Assembly: GCA_945878895.1 (NCBI GenBank)
Contig: CAMDVZ010000003.1
Span: 1-38,445, forward strand
Source: Caenispirillum bisanense
Lineage (GTDB): Bacteria; Pseudomonadota; Alphaproteobacteria; Reyranellales; Reyranellaceae
Reading direction: 5' to 3'
DNA length: 38,445 nucleotides
Made by a program: the position numbers and the translations under genes. The notes under the pieces were generated by a model. It saw only the letters and a program-made list of their open reading frames with translations. It was not told the origin of the DNA and did not search any database. Of the stretch, positions 17,632 to 21,816 are shown in pieces (positions within the stretch are counted from its first letter, which is position 1; every line of letters starts with the position of its first letter).

Positions 17632-20142
17632 TCACGCGGCGCGGCCGCGCAGGCTGTCGGCCAGTGTCGAGAGCAGATCGGCCACCAGCTTCGCGGTTTT
17701 CGGCGGCGGCAGCGGCATCCTGAGGCTGCGCGCGCCAGTGGCGGCGTCGCGCTCGATCCAGGGATGCGCGGGCGCTTTGGGATCGCCGGAGGTCGCGAGC
17801 GCGGCGACGAATTGCGCGCCGACCTGCATCAGCGCCTGCCATGGATCGGCGACCACGTCCGGCGGCGGCGTCGCGGTTCCGCGCGACCGCGGCGTTGGCG
17901 GCGCCTCGTCGCGGGACGTTGCCTCCGGCGCGGCGTCCTCACCGAATCCGGGGGCCGGGGTGGCGTTCGCGGCGGCTTCGGCAACGACGTTGGCGACTTC
18001 CTCGGCCGGCGTCACGGGTTCGCCCTCGCCCATCTTGCCCGTGACGTTCTCGACGTCCTTCATGAAGCGGCTCAGGCGCGAGCCGCCGAGCGAGACCTCG
18101 CCGCCGGCGCCATCGAGAATGCCCGCCGACAGCGAGCGCTTGAACGCCAGCACCGAGAGCATGCCCTCCTCGATGGTGCCCTTGGAGACGAAATTGATCA
18201 CCTGCACCGGCCGCTTCTGGCCCATGCGGTGGATGCGCGCGATGCGCTGCTCGAGGATCGCCGGATTCCACGGTAGGTCCATGTTGACCAGGGTCGAGGC
18301 GTGCTGGAGGTTGAGCCCGGTGCTGCCGGCATCGGTCGACAGGAAAACCCGGCAGGCCGGATCGTCGCGGAACCGCTCGACCAAGCCGGGGCGTTTCTCC
18401 GACGGTACCCCGCCATGGAAGCTGACATAGCCGATGCCGCGCGCCTCCAGCCGGCGGATCACGATCTCGTGGGTCCGCGTCCATTGCGAGAACACGACGG
18501 CCTTGGCCTCGGGATCGGCGAACACGCCGTCCAGCAGGGCCGCGAGCTCGTCGGCCTTCACGCCATGGTCGGTGGTCTGGTCGAGCAACCAGGTGCTGTT
18601 GCAGGACATCCGCATGTTCTGCAAGGCACAGGTCATCCGCCGCTGGTCCATGTCCGAGAGATAGCCGTTCCGCCGCCACCGCTGCACGATCTTGGCCACC
18701 ACGTCGGCGTTCTCCAGGTGATAGGCCATCTGCGGCTCGGTCATCGGCACCAGCAGGTTCTGGTCGGTGCGGCCGGGCAGCTGCTTCAGCACCTCGGACT
18801 TGCGGCGACGGATCATGACCGGCGCCAGCGTCTGGCCGATTTTCTCCAGTCCCGTGTAGCCGGTGACGCGGCCCGCCTCGTCCTTGACCTGGTGTTCGTG
18901 CAGCAATTTCCACGTCGGACCCAGCCGGTGCTGGTCGACGAACTGGACGATGGAGATCAGCTCCTCCAGCTTGTTCTCCAGCGGCGTGCCGGTCAGCACG
19001 ATGGCATGCGGACTATCGATGCGTTTGAGCGCGCGCGCCGCGATGGTGTTCCAGTTCTTGACCCGCTGCGCTTCGTCGACGATCACCAGCTCGGGCGCCC
19101 AGGCCGCGATCAGGTCGAGATCTGGCTTCAACTTCTCGTAGTTCGTGATCTTGCAGAAATCCTCCAGCGCGTAGTCCTTCTGCCGCTGCGCCCGGCCACC
19201 GCCGATCACGCGCGCGGCCTCGTCGTCCTTGCGCCCGGCGAAGCGCGCGATCTCGCTTTGCCACTGGTACTTCAGCGAGGTCGGGCAGACCACCAGCACC
19301 TTCGACACGCCGAAATGTCTGGCCAGGATTTCCATCGCGGCGATGGCCTGGATCGTCTTGCCGAGCCCCATGTCGTCGCCGATCAGCGCCCGCCCTGCCC
19401 GCACCGCGAACAGCGCGCCCTCGGCCTGGTAGGGATAGAGCGGCACCTTGACGAACTTCGCCAGCGCGGGATCGGCGGCGCCGCGCGGAAACAGGGTGTC
19501 GAGCGCCTGCCCGCGCCGTTCGGCGTCGCGCCGCCCGGCGACGAAATCGAGCGCGTCGTCGTAGGCACGCAACTCGTGGCTGTCTTTCGTCGCCGCGAGG
19601 ATGAAATCGTCGAGATCGCCGATCCGTTCGTCCGGCAGGACGAAGCCGCGGTCGGCGTCGAACAGCGCCGTGGCGGCGTCCATCACGGCGGGCGGACAAT
19701 CCGTGCCGGCGCGGAAATGGACGCTGCGCCGCCCCTCGGTGCGCAGATAGAGTTCGGAGAACGCCGGCCGGTAGCCGCGCCTGAACGCCGCCTTCGCGCC
19801 GCGCTTTTTCTCCAGCCGGCCGAGCGCGAACTCGATGTGCTTGCAGGTGCCCAGCTCGGCGGTCGAATAGTCGGGACAGGAACAGAAATTGCCGCCCGGC
19901 CCCGGCCCCCGGATCGACACCCGGTAGCTCGACTTCGACGCCGGGTTGCTGACCCGGAAATCGGAAAAGAACGGCTCCGTGCCCAGATTCTCCAGCCCGA
20001 ACGGCTGGTCGCGCCCGAACTGCCGCCGCAAGCCGCGCTGCCATTCCACCGGCGACAAACCGGCCGGCGCCAGCGTGCGCGAGAGCTTCGGTTCCTTGAT
20101 GGCCTTGCCGGTGGATTTCGACTTCGGGCGCTTGGCTTTCAT
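17632..20142 (-). CDS. SNF2-family DEAD/DEAH-box helicase with N-terminal SWIM zinc finger
   Basis: SWIM motif FCSCPDYSTAELGTCKHIEFAL (CxC...CxH); Walker A GDDMGLGKTIQAIAAM; DEAQ box IVDEAQRVKNW; TGTPLENKLEEL; C-lobe DAGSTGLNLQHAS...PAILEQRIARIHRMGQKRPV. Confidence 0.95.
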   Translation of the reverse strand: MKAKRPKSKSTGKAIKEPKLSRTLAPAGLSPVEWQRGLRRQFGRDQPFGLENLGTEPFFSDFRVSNPASKSSYRVSIRGPGPGGNFCSCPDYSTAELGTCKHIEFALGRLEKKRGAKAAFRRGYRPAFSELYLRTEGRRSVHFRAGTDCPPAVMDAATALFDADRGFVLPDERIGDLDDFILAATKDSHELRAYDDALDFVAGRRDAERRGQALDTLFPRGAADPALAKFVKVPLYPYQAEGALFAVRAGRALIGDDMGLGKTIQAIAAMEILARHFGVSKVLVVCPTSLKYQWQSEIARFAGRKDDEAARVIGGGRAQRQKDYALEDFCKITNYEKLKPDLDLIAAWAPELVIVDEAQRVKNWNTIAARALKRIDSPHAIVLTGTPLENKLEELISIVQFVDQHRLGPTWKLLHEHQVKDEAGRVTGYTGLEKIGQTLAPVMIRRRKSEVLKQLPGRTDQNLLVPMTEPQMAYHLENADVVAKIVQRWRRNGYLSDMDQRRMTCALQNMRMSCNSTWLLDQTTDHGVKADELAALLDGVFADPEAKAVVFSQWTRTHEIVIRRLEARGIGYVSFHGGVPSEKRPGLVERFRDDPACRVFLSTDAGSTGLNLQHASTLVNMDLPWNPAILEQRIARIHRMGQKRPVQVINFVSKGTIEEGMLSVLAFKRSLSAGILDGAGGEVSLGGSRLSRFMKDVENVTGKMGEGEPVTPAEEVANVVAEAAANATPAPGFGEDAAPEATSRDEAPPTPRSRGTATPPPDVVADPWQALMQVGAQFVAALATSGDPKAPAHPWIERDAATGARSLRMPLPPPKTAKLVADLLSTLADSLRGRAA

Positions 20143-20279: not shown

Positions 20280-20918
20280 CTATCGCGGCTCCGCATCGGG
20301 CTCCGCCCGAACCACCAAGCGATCCCCGCCCGCCGGCCTCTGCAACCCCAGCGCCTCCTTCGCCGGCGCCCGCAGCCAGACGTCGATTTCCTCGGCCGTC
20401 GTCAGCACCAGTGGCATCGCCTTGGCCGTGACCGGCCGCACGACGTCGTTGGGCGTCGTGGTCAGGAACGCGTAGAGCAGATGATCGCCGTCCACCGGCG
20501 CCGCGCGCGTGCCGCGGATGCCGTGCCACGGTCGCCACAGGCCCGCGAAGCAGAACGGCGCCGCCTCGCCCGCGCGCCCGAACCAGACCCGGCGTTTGGG
20601 CGCCGCGTCGGTCCACAGGCAGAAGGCGGTCGCCGGCACCACGCAACGCTGCGGCGGCGCCAGCCACGCCTTCCAGTAGGCCGAGCCGGTATGGCGCACC
20701 GTCGTCACCGGCCGCGCCCCCGTCGTGGGTGGCGGCGGAAACCCCCAGCGCATCGGCAACGCCTCGCGCGTGCCATCGGACGCGGCGCGCACCACCAGCC
20801 CGGTCGAATCGGCCGCCAGCTGCGTGTCGACCGGCTGGTCGAAGCCGGGAAACCGCCCGACGCCCAGCAGGGCGCGCAGGTCGGCCCGGCTCGTCGTCGC
20901 CTCGTACTCGTCGCTCAT
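20280..20918 (-). CDS. SRAP (SOS response-associated peptidase, YedK/HMCES) family protein with substituted catalytic residues
   Basis: ATG at 20918: MSDEYEATTSRADLRALLG...REALPMRWGFPPPPTTGARPVTTVRHTGSAYWKAWLAPPQRCVVPATAFCLWTD...FCFAGLWRPWHGIRG...LYAFLTTTPNDVVRPVTAKAMPLVLTTAEEIDVWL; SRAP scaffold recognisable throughout. Confidence 0.88.
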   Translation of the reverse strand: MSDEYEATTSRADLRALLGVGRFPGFDQPVDTQLAADSTGLVVRAASDGTREALPMRWGFPPPPTTGARPVTTVRHTGSAYWKAWLAPPQRCVVPATAFCLWTDAAPKRRVWFGRAGEAAPFCFAGLWRPWHGIRGTRAAPVDGDHLLYAFLTTTPNDVVRPVTAKAMPLVLTTAEEIDVWLRAPAKEALGLQRPAGGDRLVVRAEPDAEPR

Positions 20919-21345
20919 CGCCTCGCCGGACTCCCGCGGCCCGCCGGTCGACGGGCCGGGGCGATGATCGCCCGGACGGCGCGACGGTGCCAGTGGTTCC
21001 GCGCGGGCAACCGGCGCGAAGCGACTCGGCTCCAACGGTCACCCACGGGCGAAGAAGGGCACGCGAAACGGAGAACCCATCGGTGACCGCCTTCGTTCGG
21101 GGGCGTGCCGAAAACGTCGCGTAGGGCACCTGGCGGCCCGGCAACCTGGATTTTTCGCAGCGTATGGCCGCCATTCCCGGATTTATCGCCGGATAAGCAC
21201 GCGCTCTGCCGCGCCATGCGCGCGACGGCACATTGGCCGAGGCCCTCCTGCCAAATGGCACGAACCACGCCTGTCCCGTTGAGCCGGCGGCCACTCTCCG
21301 ATAAGAGCCACCGCCGCCAAACGGAACATCCGACGGACCGCCGCC

Positions 21346-21816
21346 ATGGAACTCTCCATCACCGACCTGCGCGACCAGCCAGAATTCTTCGAGACCGTCA
21401 CCGACCGCGTCTGGCGCGCCTGGTGGGAGCCGGCCGGTCACACGCTGGCCGATTTCACGACAGGCATGCGGGCCTGTCTGATGGCCAGCCGCCTGCCCTT
21501 CGCGCTGGTGGCGCACGCGGACGGCCGCTATCTCGGCTCGACCCTCTGCGTCGCGGCCGATCTGGCCGAACGACCACAATACACGCCCTGGGTGGCCGCC
21601 GTCTGGGTCGAACCGCACGCGCGTTTGCGCGAGGTCGGACGCACCCTCGTTGGCCACACCCGGCAAGCCCTGTTCAGGCTCGGCCACCGGCGCATCTATC
21701 TCTGCTCCCTGCCGGAACGGCGGGATTTCTACACCCGCCAGGGCTGGCTTCCGATCGAGCAGGATGTCGGCGCCGACAAACAGATCGTCTACGCCAGCGA
21801 CGCCGGCGACGGCTGA
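21346..21816 (+). CDS. GNAT-family N-acetyltransferase
   Basis: 156 aa; AVWVEPHARLREVGRTLVGHTRQALFRLGHRRIYLCSLPERRDFYTRQGWLPIEQ, typical GNAT motif A/B layout. Confidence 0.82.
   Translation: MELSITDLRDQPEFFETVTDRVWRAWWEPAGHTLADFTTGMRACLMASRLPFALVAHADGRYLGSTLCVAADLAERPQYTPWVAAVWVEPHARLREVGRTLVGHTRQALFRLGHRRIYLCSLPERRDFYTRQGWLPIEQDVGADKQIVYASDAGDG

Follow-up and report, generated by a model that had tools for sequence, protein, structure and literature searches.

Whether a SRAP protein can lose its entire reaction centre and still be maintained is the question raised by a gene in the window, the 38,445-nucleotide stretch of DNA that was analysed. A paper describing the SRAP family reports Cys2 as absolutely conserved, together with an Asn, a Glu and a His (PMC3765255), and the protein encoded here carries other residues at all four positions. 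Its reading frame lies on the minus strand, which the initial annotation had left unstated. The locus comprises the following features:

20280..20918, minus strand: gene of the candidate SRAP-fold pseudoenzyme, 212 codons plus stop (ATG 20918-20916, stop 20282-20280)
20913..20915, minus strand: Ser2 codon AGC, at the position of the crosslinking Cys2 of SRAPs
20700..20702, minus strand: Thr73 codon ACG, at the position of the Asn of the NxR motif in SRAPs
20694..20696, minus strand: Arg75, the conserved Arg of NxR, kept
20616..20618, minus strand: Leu101 codon CTG, at the position of the catalytic Glu of SRAPs
20427..20429, minus strand: Thr164 codon ACG, at the position of the catalytic His of SRAPs
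20421..20423, minus strand: Lys166, a conserved basic residue adjoining the His position, kept
17632..20142, minus strand: SNF2-family helicase gene, downstream of the SRAP gene on the same strand, after a gap of 137 bp
21346..21816, plus strand: GNAT acetyltransferase gene, divergent from the SRAP gene, given for context only

The 212-residue product begins with MSDEYEATTSR and matches the Pfam SRAP profile (PF02586) with 64.1 bits and an E value of 1.8e-17, the curated cut-off being 27.1. Alignment with its nearest relative of solved structure, AGR_pAT_140 (Atu5096, PDB 2aeg), places Thr73 on the Asn of TNVR, Leu101 on the Glu, and Thr164 on the His of PIHEKAMP, and an alignment of 24 sequences places Ser2 on Cys2. 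Against 2aeg and the MCNLY-type relatives these assignments are unambiguous, bearing out the initial annotation in its central claim of an SRAP protein with all four catalytic residues replaced. A conserved alternative start giving Met-Cys, raised at that time, was rejected because the whole open frame lacks Met-Cys back to the upstream stop, and starting at the TTG at 21035 would lengthen the protein by 39 residues without a single Cys. A frameshift was rejected as well, since the N-terminus is in frame with MCNLY in the 24-sequence alignment. Judged from profile and predicted fold, the protein is a true SRAP homologue and, with Ser2, Thr73, Leu101 and Thr164 in place of the crosslinking residues, is predicted not to belong to the abasic-site crosslinkers by activity.

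The AlphaFold model, computed with relatives as input, reached a pLDDT of 89 and a pTM of 0.88. A fold search with this predicted model returned 2aeg, 1zn6, HMCES and YedK as best matches, and the first 20 PDB matches were all SRAP proteins (2aeg, E 6e-17 and TM 0.79; YedK, E 5e-10; HMCES, E 5e-11), in agreement with the earlier claim that the scaffold is kept. Of the 11 columns that hold Lys or Arg in at least 70% of relatives, 10 stay basic in the window protein, R75 and K166 included, as would be expected of an SRAP DNA binder. Replacement of N3 and L4 by the acidic D3 and E4, adjoining the DNA-facing N-terminus, counts against DNA binding.

How unusual is this combination? Among 156 distinct homologues with a length of 150 amino acids or more, gathered by similarity and not a random sample, 146 carry the Cys, Asn, Glu and His set, and besides the window protein all four residues are missing in one only (L119, from a genome of the window's family). 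Two catalytic residues are lacking in L049, one in L057, and the His in L079, in which Cys2 could not be placed; the rest are incomplete. The complete set is found in 2aeg and all of the approximately 35 nearest relatives of the window protein, and the readable ones, from the same organism family, other GTDB genomes, plasmids and phages, have it without exception. No relative above about 53% identity was found, and GTDB genomes, viral contigs, plasmids, phages and samples of the order and class revealed no clade with Ser, Thr, Leu and Thr at these positions; the window form is a single sequence from one draft genome. Independent losses of part of the centre occur in the SRAP of Dongia deserti (L049:4001-4639), where Ser2 is joined by Tyr at the His position, and in a protein related to it (L057:4001-4639), with Asn for His; the source genomes of both hold further SRAP matches.

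A canonical SRAP is also encoded separately in the host genome, by one gene or more; this is the paralogue for which the initial annotation had suggested a search. Contig C169 encodes a YedK-like SRAP that has the Asn, Glu and His and whose N-terminus is cut by the contig end (G000:C169:8936-9502), and contig C420 carries an MCGR-type N-terminal piece that differs slightly from the C169 copy (G000:C420:4-117). The two pieces at contig ends hint at a strain mixture or at two genes. Because canonical SRAP genes lie elsewhere in the genome, canonical SRAP function has not been lost in the host.

Search with the first SRAP of L119 revealed a second group of SRAPs without a complete reaction centre. 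L119 has two SRAP genes that overlap by 8 nt; the product of the first starts with MSNLY and has Ser, Leu, Gln and Asn at the four positions, and the second is canonical. Four genomes of the window's family contain tandem pairs of this kind, the first copy in G082 being truncated at the contig end; further pairs lie on plasmids of Rhizobium, Agrobacterium, Ensifer, Shinella, Sphingobium and Sphingopyxis. The clade takes in the plasmid loci L224-L232 and L242-L250 together with L119/L239, L233 and L234. Across the 17 plasmid loci that were read, Ser2, Leu in place of the Asn and Asn in place of the His are present in each upstream copy, and 16 of these copies also have Asn for Glu, which L224 keeps. 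An intact canonical SRAP follows downstream on the same strand at 13 of the 17; L230 and L242 have a broken or incomplete copy there, no downstream canonical SRAP was detected in L231, and in L232 a canonical SRAP lies about 3 kb away. In L233 and L234, from genomes of the window's family, Cys2 is kept alongside Leu, Gln and Asn, which is an intermediate state.

The phylogenetic tree united the inactive copies in one clade with a bootstrap of 100. The active partners form its sister clade, and the window protein was placed outside. Membership of the window gene in the tandem clade is thus rejected by the tree; the gene is also standalone, with no active SRAP after it. Like the window protein, the tandem copies of Rhizobiaceae and Sphingomonadaceae plasmids combine a Met-Ser start and an intact frame with replacement of all four residues; they differ from it in having Leu, Asn and Asn where it has Thr, Leu and Thr, in adjoining an active SRAP, and in their separate origin. 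Because the window protein is placed apart from the inactive clade, total catalytic loss occurred at least two times.

The inactive clade is as constrained as its active partner. Omega was 0.059 for the inactive copies of Rhizobiaceae, 0.072 for all 17 inactive copies and 0.0545 for the active partners, and fixing omega at 1 worsened the fit by approximately 597, 748 and 512 lnL units, respectively. This conserved clade shows that a catalysis-free SRAP state can be stable. On many plasmids the genes run imuA-imuB-dnaE2-inactive-active; dnaE2 and the inactive gene are 10 bp apart, and about 30 bp separate the two SRAPs. On other plasmids imuA is divergent. Four loci (L225, L229, L242 and L243) have a LexA-type box (GTTC-N7-GTTC) at -57 relative to the inactive gene, and L248 has one at -65. 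The plasmid inactive copies are annotated as SOS response-associated peptidase, several of them with 'protein-DNA covalent cross-linking' by automatic annotation. Neither the operon nor the box was found at the window gene: imuAB-dnaE2 does not adjoin it, and its upstream region has no exact GTTC-N7-GTTC box or promoter-like site. A one-mismatch LexA-type site about 400 bp upstream was not counted, and LexA control of the window gene was rejected. We regard as evenly balanced the broader proposal that SRAP pseudoenzymes arose at least twice and were retained in abasic-site tolerance, in a standalone chromosomal form and in a widespread, SOS-controlled imuA-imuB-dnaE2-inactive-active operon whose inactive copy would regulate or pair with the crosslinker.

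The window gene itself could be a relic: an SRAP brought to the chromosome by a mobile element, redundant with the housekeeping SRAP, whose chemistry was lost and whose frame stays open by chance at high G+C. The conserved columns speak against such decay. In 34 canonical relatives, 44 columns are conserved at 90% or more; 35 of them are intact in the window protein, and all four catalytic columns belong to the nine lost (0/4 kept versus 35/40 of the other conserved columns; Fisher p 9e-4). Reaching the codons AGC, ACG, CTG and ACG from any codon for Cys, Asn, Glu and His, respectively, takes at least 1, 2, 2 and 3 changes, a total of at least 8 nucleotide changes in four codons. The branch is long (1.06), as decay would have it, yet omega of 1 along it was rejected by 14.35 lnL units (2 dlnL 28.7), and a free omega gave 0.084 against a background of 0.088, values that are rough given a custom-written codon model with one omega for all sites and saturated dS on the branch. 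The window protein has been under purifying selection through most of its branch. When the branch was split, the upper limit for a terminal neutral phase, in substitutions per codon, was about 0.2 (dlnL -1.72 at this value, -2.81 at 0.3), and a phase of that length would replace all four catalytic residues with a probability of about 4e-4. GC3 is 0.92, similar to that of neighbouring genes, and the predicted fold is confident. Decay draws some support from the patchy distribution of the subfamily, which is common on plasmids and phages, and from broken or partial copies among family members, for example in G015, G019 and G072. It also gains from the long antisense frames of the window: because such frames are long too at 69% G+C, the intact frame, which the initial annotation had used to argue for divergence, is weak evidence, although the frame is indeed free of frameshifts. 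Since the branch as a whole did not fit neutrality, targeted loss of the chemistry is supported as the better fit, and we consider decay unlikely. The earlier preference for divergence gains further from the independent inactive clade.

Divergence could also have gone further. A neofunctionalised protein, whose vacated pocket has taken a new ligand or partner and whose binding to DNA lesions is gone, would account for the new residues in the old pocket (S2, D3, E4, T73, L101, W102 and T164) on a kept scaffold, but not for retention of the basic columns, and a new invariant motif is not recognisable from one sequence; we hold this to be more doubtful than decay. Least probable by far, and in our view very improbable, is an assembly or binning artefact. 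The host assembly is a draft of 527 contigs, 90% complete, and its two slightly different canonical SRAP N-terminal regions do hint at a strain mixture, but sequencing error would not place 8 or more substitutions in the four catalytic codons alone. Moreover, the contig contains a chromosomal run of dprA, topA and an RNB-domain gene, with a dprA product closest to members of the same family, and for these reasons the window gene is chromosomal.

The reading that we favour, and consider somewhat probable, is that the window protein is a non-covalent pseudoenzyme of SRAP fold that would still bind DNA. Its ancestor would have been a canonical SRAP of the MCNLY or AGR_pAT_140-like (2aeg) subfamily, which is common on alphaproteobacterial plasmids and phages. 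In YedK, Cys2 is the source of both amine and thiol, and E105 and H160 open the sugar ring; the C2A mutant retains Schiff-base formation and lyase activity, the latter being 25-fold lower in C2A E105Q (PMC9436759). By analogy with this biochemistry, Ser2 should prevent closure of the thiazolidine, and without Glu and His the ring of the AP site would not be efficiently opened nor a Schiff base efficiently formed; no stable DNA-protein crosslink would be expected. Cys2-blocked E105Q and H160Q forms of YedK have not lost DNA binding (PMC9436759), and SRAP chemistry and binding are therefore separable. The basic surface that remains (R75, K166 and others) may allow non-covalent occupancy of ssDNA or AP sites; the protein would then bind reversibly, or would compete with or modulate the active SRAP in the same genome.

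Among known systems, 2aeg and the MCNLY-type alphaproteobacterial SRAPs, many of them about 40-50% identical to the window protein, share its subfamily, fold and scaffold motifs; they keep the Cys2, Asn, Glu and His of which it has none. E. coli YedK and the SRAP domain of human HMCES match its model in fold and form the Cys2 thiazolidine crosslink with AP sites, for which it lacks the residues. In the open-access papers searched, no earlier report of an inactive SRAP was found, which does not prove absence. The covalent crosslink is taken to be the function of SRAPs, and proteins that keep the fold without the reaction centre separate AP-site recognition from crosslinking. The conserved inactive and active pair adjoining the ImuB-DnaE2 mutasome offers a direct genetic handle on whether non-covalent partners regulate SRAPs.

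Finally, the SNF2-family helicase gene downstream was considered as part of a conserved pair with the SRAP gene. This was rejected: no SRAP lies near the SNF2 orthologues of 76-78% identity, and the helicases adjoining related plasmid SRAPs belong to other families. Because the pairing is not conserved, SNF2 is probably no functional partner. The orthologues are patchy, occurring in G004 and in G041, which belongs to another family and whose wider match contains an in-frame TAG; this distribution suggests horizontal transfer. Among the plasmids, a helicase-related protein adjoins a canonical MCNLY-type SRAP in Methylobacterium currus (L134:3761-5902), and a UvrD-like ATP-dependent helicase adjoins another in Acidiphilium cryptum (L133:747-2900).
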